A stretch of 64,000 bases of DNA, from assembly GCA_007922305.1 (NCBI GenBank), contig ML677364.1, positions 16,328,260 through 16,392,259 on the forward strand. Direction: 5' to 3'. The notes under the pieces are model-generated. The model was not told where the DNA came from, made no database searches, and worked only from the letters and a program-made list of their open reading frames with translations. The first letter of the stretch is position 1; each line of letters starts with the position of its first letter. This document shows positions 1,385-42,614 of the stretch, in pieces. A program made the position numbers and the translations under genes. This DNA comes from Dermatemys mawii (lineage: Eukaryota; Chordata; Testudines; Dermatemydidae).

Positions 1385-1589
1385 CGGCGTGAATAATATT
1401 GAAAAAAAAAGGCAGCTAACCTTTGGGGTTGCTCTTTGCTTCAGTGCAGAAGATTCAGCTTGGATTTGTAATTCCCTAGAGAGAGGTATGGCCTGAGGCT
1501 GCCATTAGAATTAAAGACCTTGTGCTTTATTGGTATAGCATCATTGGTGGGTATGGCACTTTACAGATAAGTATGAACCCAAAGTCCCT

Positions 1590-1662
1590 GCCCTGAAGAG
1601 CATACAGGCTAAGTATTATGCTAAGTATTATGCCCTGAAGAGCATACAGGCTAAGTATTATG
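1590..1662 (+). repeat. 42-bp tandem duplication
   Basis: The 31 bases at 1590-1620 recur exactly at 1632-1662, with a 12-bp repeat of the unit's end between them. A third, partial 'catacagg' follows. This looks like a recent local slippage or duplication. Confidence 0.85.
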
Positions 1663-1699
1663 CATACAGGACAAGAAGACAACCTCAAAAGCTTGGTGC

Positions 1700-4609
1700 A
1701 CTGTGTGTTAGTTACAAGGTTTCTGCCTGGGTCACACTAGGGAATTGTGACATTTTTATGAGAACTGGTCCAATGCACCATAGTGAGATATCAAGTCTAT
1801 GGGCTCCACTGTGGTGATGGCATTTCAATGAAAAACCATTATTGTGTCAAAACATTGCCATATTGCAGCAAGATGTAAATGGGTATTTATATGACCTCCA
1901 TCTCAATAGAAACTGAGTGCATCTCAAGTACTTATGCATAGAAATATCCATCAGCCTGATTTACTGATATGCTCCAGCTACCTTATACCGCTGTCAGGGA
2001 ACTCACAGGTGTATCAAAATGTATTTGTTCTGTTATTTGCCAGCTAGAAACACATAGTAGTAGTTCCTGTTTGAATAGATACCATAGTAGAGTACACCAT
2101 GAGTAGCAGAGAACATATGCACCTCAAGGATAACTATTAATATGATTCAATTTTAATGTTATTACAGCTGCATACCATTACAGTAATAAATATAATCTAG
2201 ATATCTCACACTAAAATAAGTGTTTTGGAAATACTACCCCATGATTAAGGCAAAAAGGAAGCACCAATCTTATTTTTATTATTATTTTACCAGTGAAGGT
2301 AAAGACTGCATTAAAATTTAATTTCCAAACCTATACAGGGCCATTATCCACTATACAGGAAAGAATGCTTACAATGAAAATAGCATCATGCATAATACTT
2401 AATGCATTCATAACCACAAAATAAGTATCCCATAGGGACACAAAAACATGGAAACAATACAGGATAGGAACTGAAATTATGTCATGTTCTTCTATCCTCA
2501 ACATTACTGACTTTCTCAGTCCATAAAAGGTTTATAAAGTGCATCCCAAAATGTTCTTTCTCTTCACCTAATGATAGAAATAATTAATTCCATATTATAC
2601 ATTGTACATGCTCTAAAGACCTGTGTTCAGCTCCCAGTAGAGGAAACACCTTTGCCAACTCGATTTTCCTTCCTGAACCTGCGGTGATTCTACTCAGACT
2701 CAGGAACTTAGATATCACAGAGATGAGCACAACAGCAAAGTCTATAAATAAAATAATATAAATTAAATAATAATATGCTGATAAGGGTCTAATTCACCCC
2801 ATGGCCTAAACGTGAATGATTCCTTTACTTCAGTGTGCTCTCCCTGCTTATGCCAATGGGGAATTTGACACTTTATGTCCATCACTATCTGTCTTGATTA
2901 GTTATCTGAAGACTAAACATAAAATATTAGATTAAATTCATCCTGCCACTAAAGAAGGAATGGCCAGTGGTTCCATCTCTGCACAGACCTACAGGCATTG
3001 TCCACACTACACCTGACCACACACATACAGAGGAGCTAACTGTCATTCTGAATTCAGATCCCTTAAGTTATACAGCCCCTGGACCAATCAACGTGGCTCA
3101 TTAAGATAATACATAATTTTGATATCTCGTGGAGCACCTAACACTAAGGGTAATTTTCATTCCAGTTAATATGCAATAAGCAGTTATACACTTTTTTTGC
3201 TCTTTGTCTTTTTAATTTTAAAATGCATTTTTAATTAGTTTCCTACCCATCTAAGAGTAAGGATTATGAATAAAGTACCATCAAGACCTCTGCAGCTATT
3301 ACTTTAACTGCTCCTTCTTTACAGAGTGTTTAACTTGTATTGCATTTCTGGTGCACACTTTGCTCTTCATGTCAGGTCACCACAAGTGTTTCAAAGACTT
3401 GAGGCAGCAGGTAGAAAGCAGCTAATTTCAACTTCATAACACTTCTTTACATTTTTTAATAATTATTTTAAATAACAAAACAAAACATTGAGGATTGAAA
3501 AACTAGCTATTGTGTTATCAGTTTAAAATGTCCAACCAGAGTTTGTGTTGGGTTAAAAGGATGGAAATATAATACATGTACACAGGATCGAATCCTGGCC
3601 CAGCTTCTGTGAACACACGGAGGAATGCGGATGTGTACAGCATTTCATGGGTAGCAGCACAGAGAGAGTGGTCCTCTCTGCGGAGCTGCTATATTCCCCA
3701 ACTTTCCCCATTAGTGCATGAGTATAGCATTGGCTCTATCTCTCTATGCACTGGCCAACATAGCTGTGGAACACTCCCAAGAGCATATGCTGTGCCATAT
3801 ATCACCTTGATGCAAGAGGGAACCCAAAGGGTAGTCCCAGTGTGCCCCAGGGAAGCATAACAATATACTGACCATAGCTGGGGCAAAGCCACAGTTCAGC
3901 CTGTTGTTTAGTACATGAGTACCACGGGCTTCTTTTTAATAACAAACTCCCATTGCTTTCACAGCCAAACAGAAGACAAAGTTCATCCATTTTTAAACAA
4001 TTTACCTTGTCTAAGCAGAATGTGCCTCTGAAAAGGGCTGTTATGGCCAGGATGGGGATAGGGATGAGCTCCCATCTCCTATAAAATGCCCCAAGCAGCT
4101 AGCAAAACCAACCACCTCTGACAGTGAAACTCCCCATCGCTTGCCTTCGGTCGGTGGAGGTGTTTCTATCAAAAATGGAGGTGTGAAAGACAAGCATCTG
4201 GTGCCTTTTAAAAGAAATCATCTCCTCAGGGCACATGTGGCTCTTCAGCCCTGGCAGGCAGCCGCTGAGGAAAATGAAACTCCAAATTCAAACCAGGGCT
4301 ATAATGCCCCTCAAGACAGAATGTCCTCTTTGGATGACAACAGCAGCGGATGCTACCAGGATTATTGTCCACAATTACTCATGATCACATGGCAAGACTT
4401 CAGCATAGAGGTGACACATTGGGTGGCATATTTGGGGAAGCCAACGTAATCGCATGGGTAATTTCAGCAATTAATTTGAGATGGGTAACTGGATACTGAG
4501 CAAATCAAAATGACCACACAAGTGCTTTCCATCGGCACATGAAATGTTTGTACCCTGAAAGCAGGATATCTTCAACCAATATAAAATGAGTTCTCATCAG
4601 TGAATGCAT
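1700..4609. other. Non-coding stretch, no gene seen
   Basis: AT-rich DNA. The open frames at 3576-3860 and 4141-4449 have unbiased composition and no family features that I know. 3580-4430 is more GC-rich than the preceding 2 kb and could be an old, unrecognised repeat. Confidence 0.45.
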
Positions 4610-4850
4610 ACCAAGATGCCAGTCGCTGCTGCCATCTGGAAGCTGGCCACGCCTACATGCCAGCAGGCTGCAGCCAACAAATTTGACATGAGGATATGAA
4701 CTGTTGGGCTGATGGTCATGCAGGTGTGTGATGCTATGGAAAAGTTATTGTTGCACTGGGATGTAAATAATACTCGAGATTATTGAGGCCTTTGCATGCA
4801 TGGGGTTCCTAGTCTGTATTGGGCAATTCATGGGAACCGTGGGCCTATTA
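4610..4850 (+). pseudogene. Decayed PIF/Harbinger transposase fragment
   Basis: The plus strand around 4690-4850 follows the order of the Harbinger transposase segments at 10.7-11.5 kb and 50.8-51.3 kb, which lie on the minus strand. It reads a 'gtcatgcaggtgtgtgatgctat' counterpart, then a degenerate GF.....AI.G...PI block near 4799-4845, where the catalytic D of the family's GAIDGTHIPI motif has changed. Stops and indels are frequent, so it is a non-functional remnant. No terminal repeats were found. In the family this protein is the DDE nuclease that excises and inserts the element. Confidence 0.55.
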
Positions 4851-10229: not shown

Positions 10230-11560
10230 AATTAGCCAAAAAAGGCAGCGCCAGAGGCCTTTTAATCTGCCAAAGGCACATTCAGTGGTCATTTGGCACC
10301 AGCTGAGCCTGCTGTTGAAGCAGTCCTTGCTGCTGTCTTGGTTCCCAGTACAGTAGACTCTCGATTATCCAGGATGATAGGGAAAAAATTAATCCTGGTT
10401 CATAAAATCCCAGATAATCACCTTCCATAGGAAACATGGGGAGGGAGGGTTGGTTCACCAGCCACCCTGCGCGGCGGGGAGGGAGTGTTGGTTCACTGGC
10501 TGCCCTGTGTCCTGGTGGGGTTTTTGTGTGTGTGTGTGTGTGCGCACTTGATGTGGCAACAAAGCCAGAGCCAACCCTGCAAGTTACACGTAATTTTTTT
10601 TTGACATCCTGGTTAATCAACATCCTGGTTAACCCAATGCTGGATAATCAAGAGTCTACTGTATAAGTCACAAGAGTAAGGGCTAGGCTGGATCTCCCAG
10701 GATCGCTGTGGACATCTGCATATCCCGACTGGAATCTTCTGGTCTAGAAAGAAAGTCCCAGATGCAGTTTTCTATACAGTCCAGTGTTCCTAAAGATGCA
10801 TGCATCGTGCACTTTCCCTGACCAACCCACACTGATGTCAGTGAAATAGCCCCAGTGATCCACCAGTGCCTGTAAGGTCATAGAGAAATAGCTTTTTGAG
10901 TTGATGTACTCCATCACAAGATTGTTTGGGGCTAAAATTGGGATATATGTGCCATCTATCAGCCCACTGCATTTAGGGAATCCCATTGCTGCAGAGCCAC
11001 CAATTATTTCCTGCACATTACCAAGAGTCAGAGTCTGTAGTAGGAGGAGGCAATTAATGACCCTGCACACTTGCATCACTGGAAGCCCCACAGTGGACTT
11101 TCCAACTCCAAACTATTTGCGACTGAAAATCTGGATTTGCCAGCTTACACAAAGTGATCATCACTTACTTTTCCACTGTGAGGGCAGATCTCATTGTGGC
11201 ATCCATGCACTGCAAAGCAGGAGTGAACTTTACAAACAGTTCCAGGAAGGTGGCTTTGTGCATCTAAAAGTTCTGCAGCCACAGCTCATCATCCCAGACC
11301 TGCATAACAATGAAATCCCAGTGCTTGCTTCCCAAGCCCAGTACCAATGGTCCACCATGTGCAGCTGCTCCATGAATGCCAGCAGCAATAATGAATTGTT
11401 CCTTTTCATTGCACACAGCATGGCAGGTATCACAGATTCCCTTTCTGTTTCCCAGCTCATGAAATACTGCAGGACCAGCCGCATTGTGTTCATAAGGCTC
11501 ATCACCTGACTGGCCAGCAGTGCAGGATCCATGCTTTCAGGCAGATATGGCAGGCACACA
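10230..11560 (-). pseudogene. PIF/Harbinger transposase, broken
   Basis: Transposase segments lie in order on the minus strand. 11559-11230 is the N-terminal part and ends in a CGCRTFRCTKPPSWNCL-like block. 11091-10744 carries GFPKCSGLIDGTYIPI, whose D is the first catalytic Asp position, and YFTDISVGWSGKVHDACIF, whose D positions match the second. 10292-10220 carries ECAFGRLKGLWRCL, the conserved C-terminal E block (VECAFGRLK in related copies). The segment between the second D and the E is shortened and the Tigger MITE interrupts it, so the catalytic domain cannot be complete. Frame changes also separate the segments. The family (DDE_Tnp_4) cuts and pastes DNA at TWA sites. Confidence 0.85.
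10351..10661. mobile_element. Tigger-type (Tc1/mariner) MITE nested in Harbinger
   Basis: The left end CAGTAGACTCTCGATTATCC is matched by the right end, other strand CAGTAGACTCTTGATTATCC, with one mismatch in 20. TA dinucleotides flank both sides (10349-10350, 10662-10663). The 311-bp interior has a (TG)n tract and no coding sequence. The 'ACTCTCGATTATCC' termini are typical of the Tigger group. It must be younger than the Harbinger copy that it interrupts. Confidence 0.9.
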
Positions 11561-32935: not shown

Positions 32936-33173
32936 TCTGACTTCATGAACTTTTTGATGATTTAGAATGAAGAGAAGTTCTTGTGGAATCACAGATTTGT
33001 AAGGCTGTAGGGTACATGTTCTCAAGCAGACTTTTAGCTGAATTTTTATGTATGCAGTGAAATGTTTTTTCATAGCTACTGCGTAGCAAAGTGGCAAGAC
33101 TGGGCTGCCCTGGTTTTTATTTTAAATGGGTGTTTTATATTGTGAGAAGAAGCTAAATGCCACATGCCTATTA

Positions 33174-33300
33174 CACTGGTCTACAATTTTTTAGAAGTGG
33201 TCTGCTTCAGAGATAAAATGTGATATTTATTATGTATTTTGATGTGCTGAATTCAAATATGACAATTAAAACAACTGATTGGCTACTGTTTCTAAGATAT
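33174..33300 (+). repeat. Left terminal inverted repeat of the CACTG element
   Basis: Begins CACTGGTCTACA directly after TTA. The inner conserved word TGATTGGCT with a nearby AAGATAT at 33276-33300 has its inverted partner in the right arm. It is diverged between arms, so the element is old or the inner part was never identical. Confidence 0.8.
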
Positions 33301-33534
33301 TTAAGTTTTTACATTTTATGTCTATGTATATTGTGTAGATAGTAGAGTTTTAATCACAAATTGTAAACCTAGGTCTTTTCATGTGTTTGTGGTTGCTTTA
33401 CATGATAATATTTCACCTGTCCTGTTTATGTAACACTTTAAAAATCAGCAAAAGGGTTATATAAATAAAATGTATTATGAAACAAAAGGCAAAAAAACTT
33501 TTATGTACATAGTTTAGTCCTATTCAGTGTCTAC

Positions 33535-35192
33535 TCAGAGCTTCTTGGCTTGTCTCTTGTATTCATTACATGGAGCATCTCTTGTCACCGTCCAGCAATA
33601 GTCTGCAAGCATTGATGGGCTCCATTTGCCCTGATAGCGTTTCTCCATTGTTGCAATGTCCTGGTGAAATCGCTCGCCGTGCTCGTCGCTCACTGCTCCG
33701 CAGTTCGGTGGAAAAAAATCTAGATGAGAGTGCAAAAAATGTATCTTTAGTGACATGTTGCAACCAAGGCTTTTGTATGCCTTGAGGAGGTTTTCCACCA
33801 ACAACCTGTATCTGTCTGCCTTGTTGTTTCCGAGAAAATGTATTGCCACTGACTGGAAGGCTTTCCATGCCGTCTTTTCCTTGCCACGCAGTGCATGGTC
33901 AAATGCATCATCTCGAAGAAGTTCACGAATCTGAGGACCAACAAAGACACCTTCCTTTATCTTAGCTTCACTTAACCTTGGAAATTTTCCACGGAGGTAC
34001 TTGGAAGCTGCTTGTGTTTTGTCAATGGCCGTGACAAAGTTCTTCATCAGACCCAGTTTGATGTGTAAGAGTGGTAACAAAATCTTCCTTGATTCAACAA
34101 GTGGTGGATGCTGAACACTTTTCCTCCCAGGCTCCAATGACTGTCAGAGTGGCCAATCTTTCTTGATGTAGTGGGAATCTCTTGCACGACTATCCCATTC
34201 GCAGAGAAAACAGCAGTACTTTGTGTATCCAGTCTGCAGACCAAGCAAGAGAGCAACAACCTTCAAATCGCCACAAAGCTGCCACTGATGTTGGTCATAG
34301 TTTATGCACCTCAAAAGTTGCTTCATGTTGTCATAGGTTTCCTTCATATGGACTGCATGACCAACTGGAATTGATGGCAAAACATTGCCATTATGCAGCA
34401 AAACAGCTTTAAGACTCGTCTTCGATGAATCAATGAAGAGTCTCCACTCATCTGGATCGTGATCACACCATCGATGTTGTTGCAGGCTACAAGATCACCT
34501 TCCATGAAGAAGAATGGGACAAGATCCTTTTGATGGTCACGGAACATGGAAACCCTAACATCACCTGCCAGGAGATTCCACTGCTGTAGTCTGGAGCCCA
34601 ACAGCTCTGTCTTACTCTTGGGTAGTTCCAAATCACTGACAAGGTCATTCAGTTCAGCTTGTGTTATGAGGTGTGGTTCAGAGGAGGATGGGAGAAAATG
34701 TGGGTCCTGTGACATTGATGGTTCAGGACCAGAAGTTTCATCTTCTTCCTCTTCCTCATCTGACTCAAGTGAGAATGATTCTAGTGCATCAGGAACCAGC
34801 AGTCCTTCTCCGTGGGGTATTGGACGTATAGCTGATGGAATGTTTGGATAATGCGCAGTCCACTTTTTCTTCTTTGACACACCTTTCCCAACTGGAGCCA
34901 CCATGCAGAAGTAACAATTGCTGGTATGATCTGTTGGCTCTCTCCAAATCATTGGCACTGCAAAAGGCATAGATTTCCTTTTCCTGTTCAACTGCTGGCG
35001 AAGATTTGTTGCACAAGTGTTGCAGCATATGTGTGGGGCCCACCTCTTGACCTGATCTCCAATTTTGCAGCCAAAATAAAGGTGATAGGCTTTCTTAACC
35101 ATAGTGGTTATACTGAGCTTTTGTGATGCAAAAGTCACTTCACCACAAACATAGCAGAAGTTATCTGCACTGTTCACACAAGTACGAGGCAT
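33535..35192 (-). pseudogene. Putative DDE-type transposase of an undescribed family, broken
   Basis: The start is the ATG at 35192. The N-terminal ~62 residues carry C13-x2-C16 and C57-x2-C60, a ZAD-like zinc-binding pattern, and a further CYFC motif follows near residue 94. An acidic stretch (EEEEEDE) and Ser/Pro linker come next. A frame change lies near 34,462-34,468. After it come FIDSSK (D codon near 34431), CGDLKVVALLLGLQ (D at 34269-34267) with KYCCFLC (about 34218-34201) just downstream, a TGA at 34146-34144 where CGA is the simplest ancestor, and finally SDEHGERFHQD (E near 33675). The D, D+Cys cluster, E order resembles CACTA-type DDE nucleases. The frames sum to about 550 codons without introns. 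I recall close relatives as uncharacterised proteins in arthropods and cnidarians. The transposase role is inferred. Confidence 0.75.
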
Positions 35193-35239
35193 CTGTGCTC
35201 ACTTTGGCTCAACAGAAATGTGTCCCTTTGCAAAATCAA

Positions 35240-35702
35240 ATACTGACAAATAAGAGAACACGACACTGTATGATTTCTAGAGCTGATATAGGGCAATTTG
35301 TTCAGCAGAGTGATGTAAGCTTCATTATGATTGCATCATCCATGACTTCTAGGAATAACATGATGCAATTCATATCATGTAGGACGCAATACCAGCTTCA
35401 GATTGCATCATTCATTGTTTTGCCTAAAAAGCAACTACTGTCCAAACCCAGTCATAGATTTATTCATAGATCCAGTCAAAGATGTATTTTAGTCATTTCT
35501 GGTTTAAATTGAGATCCCTTCCCTTTATAACTCACTTATCCTCCGCCATTCCCATGTCAAGGGTCGTATATACTGAACCAATAGCATATCTTGAAAACTA
35601 GAGCCAATCAACAATTTTAAGCATCATTTTCGTTCTCAGTGACCCAGAATTAGTAAAGTTTGACTATATTTATTTCAGAAGCATTTTGGCTGTAGAGCAG
35701 TG
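35240..35702 (+). repeat. Right (5') arm of the CACTG element with inner direct repeats
   Basis: Upstream of the gene, 'gattgcatcat' occurs at about 35328-35338 and again at 35402-35412, with related 'catgatgcaattcat' between. The arm ends TGTAGAGCAGTG, followed by TTA. The repeated words are candidate transposase binding sites. Confidence 0.65.
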
Positions 35703-35749
35703 TTACAGCTAATCAAAAAAATTATATGAAAAACATTTTTGATAAGAAA

Positions 35750-41819: not shown

Positions 41820-41825
41820 AGACCA

Positions 41826-42614
41826 AAAGAAATCTGATAAGGTTCAACAAGGACAAGTGCAGAGTCCTGCACTTAGGACGGAAGAACCCCATGCACTGCT
41901 ACAGACTAGGAACTGAATGGCTAGGCAGCAGTTCTCCAGAAAAGGACCTAGGGATTACAGTGGACGAGACGCTGGATATGAGTCAACAGTCTGCCCTTGT
42001 TGCCAAGAAGGCTAATGATATTTTGGGCTGTATAAGTAGGGGCATTGCCAGCAGATCGAGGGACGTGATCATTCCCCTCTATTCGACATCGGGGAGGCCT
42101 CATCTGGAGTACTGTGTCCAGTTTTGGGACCCACACTACAAGAAGGATGTGGAAAAATTGGAAAGAGTCCAGAGGAGGGCAACAAAAATGATTAGGGGCC
42201 TGGAGCACATGACTTACGAGGAGAGGCTGAGAGAACTGGGATTGTTTAGTCTACAGAAGAGAAGACTGAGGGGAGATTTGATAGCTGCTTCCAGCTCCCT
42301 GAAAGGGGGTTCCAAAGAGGATGGAGCTAGGCTGTTCTCAGTGGTACCAGATGACAGAACAAGGAGTAATGGTCTCAACTTGCAGTGTGGAAGGTTTAGG
42401 TTGGATATTAGGAAAAACTTTTTCACTAGGAGAGTGGTGAAGCACTGGAATGGGTTACCTAGGGAGGTGGTAGAATCTCCTTCCTTAGAGGTCAGGCTTG
42501 ACAAAGCCCTAGCTGGAATGATTTAGTTGGGGATTGATTCTGCTTTGAGCAGGGGGTTGGACTAGATGACCTCCTGAGGTCCCTTCCAACCCTGCTATTC
42601 TATGATTCTATGAA
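41826..42614 (+). mobile_element. CR1 LINE, 5'-truncated, younger copy nested in older CR1
   Basis: Ends in the classic CR1 3' signature 'tattctatgattctatgaa'. Most of it is open in one frame (41891-42526), and it has far fewer defects than the older copy around it. CR1 moves by target-primed reverse transcription and is normally 5' truncated, as here. Confidence 0.93.
41891..42526 (+). pseudogene. CR1 reverse transcriptase C-terminal part (truncated)
   Basis: About 211 codons covering the region after the polymerase palm in the CR1 second open frame. Landmarks are the [14 protein letters not shown] block, [60 protein letters not shown], and [20 protein letters not shown] near the end. It lacks the endonuclease and the catalytic YxDD region because of 5' truncation. 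There is no start of its own; the ATG at 41891 is incidental. It closes about 90 bp before the CR1 3' terminus, as expected. Confidence 0.92.

Follow-up and report, generated by a model that had tools for sequence, protein, structure and literature searches.

The 64,000 nucleotides of the turtle Dermatemys mawii analyzed here (contig ML677364.1, positions 16,328,260 to 16,392,259; hereafter the window) contain a DNA transposon of 2,529 bp, which is bounded by short inverted repeats and a duplicated target site and carries a single damaged transposase gene. Its features, in window positions, are as follows:

33174..35702: whole element, 2,529 bp; the same ends, with their own 3-bp duplications, occur in other genomic copies
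33171..33173: left target-site duplication, TTA
35703..35705: right target-site duplication, TTA
33174..33185, plus strand: left terminal inverted repeat CACTGGTCTACA, downstream of the gene
35691..35702: right terminal inverted repeat TGTAGAGCAGTG, read on the minus strand as CACTGCTCTACA, upstream of the gene
34344..35198, minus strand: transposase piece 1, cysteine-rich N-terminus, up to a frameshift near 34464
starts 35156/35147, 35024/35015 and 34916/34907, minus strand: CxxC pairs in piece 1
34144..34494, minus strand: transposase piece 2, predicted RNase-H-like core, ending with the in-frame stop 34144-34146
34429-34431 and 34267-34269, minus strand: first and second aspartate (D), in piece 2
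34210-34212 and 34201-34203, minus strand: C(2)C, in piece 2
33535..34143, minus strand: transposase piece 3, with LH, H(4)H and the conserved glutamate (E)
34063-34065, minus strand: LH, in piece 3
33739-33741 and 33724-33726, minus strand: H(4)H, in piece 3
33682-33684, 33673-33675 or 33643-33645, minus strand: candidate catalytic E, in piece 3

The CACTG ends and the exact TTA duplication proposed by a sequence-only reading of this DNA are present (33171-33185 and 35691-35705), with 11 of the 12 bases of the terminal inverted repeats pairing. Inverted similarity extending inward from the ends, also described in that reading, is unsupported (15 of 48 bases are alike, compared ungapped and in register; no chance or gapped test was made). 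Across the whole window, 25 pairs of positions spaced 1-4 kb, one of them formed by the element's own ends, combine a 12-bp inverted match of the same quality with an exact repeat of 3 bp, so that inverted ends by themselves prove little and could, on this count, have paired by chance around a pseudogene. An Rfam scan of the window gave no match.

The gene, read on the minus strand from an ATG at 35190-35192, was expected to be a single broken one with a zinc-type N-terminus, and it is indeed found as three pieces, interrupted by the frameshift near 34464 and the in-frame stop, with a cysteine-rich beginning; to judge from these letters, the capacity to encode the full enzyme is lost in the window copy. 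The conserved D, D plus cysteine cluster, and E positions noted in the same reading agree with an alignment of 87 relatives: both D residues, the LH histidine and the first cysteine of C(2)C are present in 87/87 and the second cysteine in 86/87, and both histidines of H(4)H and the three candidate E residues in all 79 relatives that have letters there. The second D is separated from the first cysteine by 19 residues, the same spacing as that of D708 and C727 in RAG1.

Copies, empty sites and age of the family

Copies were sought in the 1.81-Gb source genome, where 2,651 first-look candidates were obtained, 40 were scored and 30 loci were cut out and read. All 40 scored copies, spread over many contigs, are at least 94% identical to the window copy, and both ends were found in 29 of the 30 loci, L029 being the one in which no ends could be paired with up to two mismatches. 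CAC...GTG termini are seen in the window copy and in most of the 29 paired ones, a few of which have one end base mutated. An exact 3-bp duplication flanks 28 of the 29 (the exception is L002), being TTA in 14 and TAA in 10 (TWA in 24/28) and CTA, TAT, ATA and AAA in one each. This duplication is preceded by A in 19/28 and followed by T in 23/28, with both together in 16/29; of 756 pairs of 3-mers taken just outside the duplication and compared across copies as a control, 30 agree. A further 30 right-end loci, partly the same copies, gave TTA in 16, TAA in 7, TAT in 4, and ATA, CAA and CTA in one each, with T next in 25. The sharing of ends and of TTA or TWA duplications that was to be sought among copies is therefore found in 28/29 (exact duplication) and 24/28 (TWA). 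Homologues without these ends and duplications, or a single-copy orthologue in conserved synteny, had been named as observations that would speak against a transposon; neither was encountered, because the copies read share the ends and have duplications of their own, and many contigs of the one genome examined carry them.

Some loci deserve separate mention. L026 (G000:C66; element at 1500-4636 of the locus) has 3,137 bp between its ends, about 600 bases above the others, which are perhaps a nested insertion. Deletion derivatives of the miniature inverted-repeat transposable element type were sought in the 30 right-end loci with 1.5-kb flanks, allowing 2 mismatches, and only L055 and L057 could be paired with a left end, both lacking a duplication. 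Matches of equal score sit at near-equal positions on neighbouring contigs (C45:2163982 and C46:2162025; C33:3222251 and C32:3223106), which suggests that the assembly holds both haplotypes in places.

Places without the element were searched for by comparing the joined flanks of copy L014 with the genome and scoring 40 of 2,573 candidates. Of the 41 places matched by the joined flanks, 38, known as matches, continue over the junction at 78-82% identity with the element missing; L014's own locus accounts for two, one for each half, and the last is a short piece. The empty site in L035, which was read, is 78% identical to the joined flanks over 385 columns; its junction is ungapped and has a single trinucleotide. 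L005 and L008 have relatives of greater divergence (68-75%) that continue over the junction, in some cases with small gaps next to it, and the pair L030/L013 was not counted, as it has a 16-base gap at the junction. One site holds the element at one locus and lacks it in related repeats. It is the sharing of ends with individual duplications by other copies, together with such empty sites, that proves the transposon; the same two end points in 29/30 loci, 28 of them with exact duplications, and the related sites without the element rule out the chance pairing considered above, which is hardly conceivable at this point, and a host gene at this locus is ruled out by the copies and the empty sites as well.

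Divergence was measured on an alignment of 28 of the 30 loci, omitting L026 and L029. Pairwise identity among them is 95.8-98.5% (mean 96.9%), half the mean Kimura two-parameter distance is 1.6% (1.1% without CpG columns), and L024 is the nearest neighbour of all 27 other copies. This star-like pattern, combined with the close identity, makes the family look like the product of one burst from one source. A full-length open frame is retained in two copies and missing in 26/28:

G000:C10:7370804-7373354: L008, open-frame copy, 566 codons between stops
G000:C43:17977527-17979510, with surroundings: L020, open-frame copy, 564 codons between stops

The translation of L008, the one of these two that was inspected, contains the motifs.

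Relatives and predicted fold of the transposase

The read-through protein was used as query at E 1e-3 or better, scoring only the 7,995 candidates that share most words with it, and at least 2,238 relatives were found. The best 120, which were listed, are for the most part unnamed sequences, alongside uncharacterised proteins from painted turtle, lamprey, frog, firefly and leech, so that the expectation of relatives filed as uncharacterised animal proteins proved right among the matches listed. Chrysemys and Gopherus proteins match at 88-93%, the lamprey protein P0009 (Lethenteron) at 79% over 85% of the query, and the leech protein P0217 (Helobdella) at 61%. Horizontal transfers have been published for Chapaev3 transposons (PMC4079192, in excerpt), and the 79% identity to P0009, high for so distant a host, would be in line with them. 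None of the best 120 of 2,884 proteins in a further protein search is named Chapaev, and a Chapaev3 reference sought in viral contigs (with two peptide patterns) and in phages gave no relative. In Pfam searches of the transposase and its relatives no family reaches the cut-off, and sequence searches of the PDB found no solved relative of the transposase.

Some gene models fuse transposase pieces to other sequences: a KRAB domain is joined to them in P0005 of Rhinatrema bivittatum (residues 1-212) and in P0094 of Gopherus flavomarginatus (residues 79-204), and P0050 of Gopherus joins two transposase pieces. Such models may reflect either exonisation of transposon sequence or artefacts of gene prediction. 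That relatives are annotated as host proteins, some with KRAB, would agree with a host gene domesticated from a transposase, an explanation that is very improbable given copies with ends and duplications of their own on many contigs, the lack of a full-length frame in most of them and their star-like divergence.

A structure model of the catalytic part predicts C(2)C / H(4)H and a helical insertion in addition to an RNase-H-like core, giving a fold like those of the antibody-gene recombinase RAG1 and of Transib; to RAG1 and HzTransib it aligns structurally at 11-14% identity. A predicted structure without an RNase-H-like fold, which had been set down as evidence against the transposase, was therefore not obtained.

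As for the N-terminus, its CxxC pairs and a histidine are conserved among the 87 aligned relatives. Weak profile matches include zf-AD in 5/87 and RAG1_imp_bd in 2/87, among 35 weak families, and the region 34960-35192 (about the first 75 codons) is weakly ZAD-like by fold and profile. Chapaev3 has been grouped with Transib and RAG1, its N-terminal zinc domain being named Chapa (PMC4411706, in excerpt). It is a rather doubtful proposal that homology links this domain with the ZAD found in insect ZAD-C2H2 transcription factors and in vertebrate ZNF276. On that proposal the large ZAD family may owe its dimerisation domain to the capture of a Chapaev-type transposase, or the two may descend from an older common source, and the domain would serve the transposase for dimerisation; the absence of a ZAD match for the domain in a PDB sequence search counts against the link. 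If true, it would bear on the origin of the insect ZAD transcription factors.

Copies with an open frame have one single-exon gene for a transposase of about 560 amino acids, and in the copies read the preferred target is TWA, often between A and T, which is duplicated upon insertion. A plausible cycle would have the transposase bind the CACTG ends, excise the element by a metal-dependent D-D-E reaction, perhaps with hairpins like those of RAG and Transib, and join it to a target cut with a 3-base stagger. The footprint and the predicted fold point to such cut and paste, the chemistry being inferred.

Two other frames were noted in the window. One is a DDE_Tnp_4 transposase fragment at 10744-11112 on the minus strand (E 1.9e-13), which we take to be of Harbinger type; the other is a 234-amino-acid frame at 41822-42526 on the plus strand, with no Pfam match at E 1e-3, presumably the end of a reverse transcriptase from a long interspersed nuclear element (CR1-type).

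Affinity with Chapaev3 and neighbouring groups

Set beside the named Chapaev3 families by their published descriptions, the element is very probably a decayed autonomous copy of a cut-and-paste DNA transposon of Chapaev3 type, in the CACTA/Mirage/Chapaev/Transib (CMCT) clade. In the excerpts of PMC4079192, Chapaev elements have CAC/GTG ends and the C(2)C, LH and H(4)H motifs, and all Chapaev3 examined there have TWA duplications flanked by A and T and mostly one exon, with star-like copies; Garfield_BM has 2,289 bp and a 556-amino-acid transposase. The CMCT clade has, in the excerpts of PMC12730594, C(2)C and H(3-4)H between the second D and the last E, mostly CA..TG ends and 2-5-bp duplications. 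The sequence-only reading had seen a DNA transposon with CACT ends and mostly TWA duplications in the CACTA/Mirage/Chapaev neighbourhood, which the copies and motifs bear out. Its impression of a protein unlike any transposase of those groups finds no support, since the motifs, ends and target are those published for Chapaev3, the motif set is that of the clade and the model is RAG1/Transib-like. An undescribed superfamily was rejected because the features fit Chapaev3; most likely the kind is one already described, not a new one, and this family is a likely member in this genome.

The rival that stays is a separate, unnamed CMCT lineage, close to Chapaev3 without belonging to it, or else an EnSpm-like lineage of animals, with ends and target shared by descent. 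The resemblance to named Chapaev3 proteins is known by description and not by direct alignment, which leaves room for it, and three further points speak for it: no Pfam family is above cut-off; fungal EnSpm has both CAC..GTG ends and 3-bp duplications (PMC12730594, in excerpt), so that these are not unique to Chapaev3; and the A and T flanks are a preference and no rule, looser than published. Such a lineage is nevertheless unlikely, as the TWA target, LH with C(2)C and H(4)H, the length and the single exon match Chapaev3, and the published Chapaev3 tree includes leech and lamprey (PMC4079192, in excerpt), the hosts of P0217 and P0009, although the same elements are not implied.

An unknown superfamily is not needed to account for the element. 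The family it adds is Chapaev3-like and well supported; its copies lie about 1.6% from their source, 2/28 have open genes, and it is of use for work on how such elements spread and on a RAG-like transposase without a solved relative by sequence.

Among known systems, Transib, RAG-like elements and RAG1 share with it the predicted RNase-H-like core, the helical insertion and C(2)C / H(4)H. Transib duplicates 5 bp of target and Chapaev elements other than Chapaev3 duplicate 4 bp, whereas the copies read have 3-bp duplications and differ in this from both groups. We know of no TWA preference in EnSpm/CACTA, and the plant members have a different gene content. EnSpm/CACTA is alike in the CMCT motif set and in the ends and 3-bp duplications of its fungal families (PMC12730594, in excerpt). 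Chapaev as a whole has 3-4-bp duplications, and the Chapaev3 families Merrow, Garfield and Conan resemble the element in CAC...GTG ends, TWA duplications, similar length, C(2)C, LH, H(4)H and star-like bursts; the gene has one exon here, as in most other Chapaev3, unlike Merrow and Garfield, which have two (PMC4079192, in excerpt).
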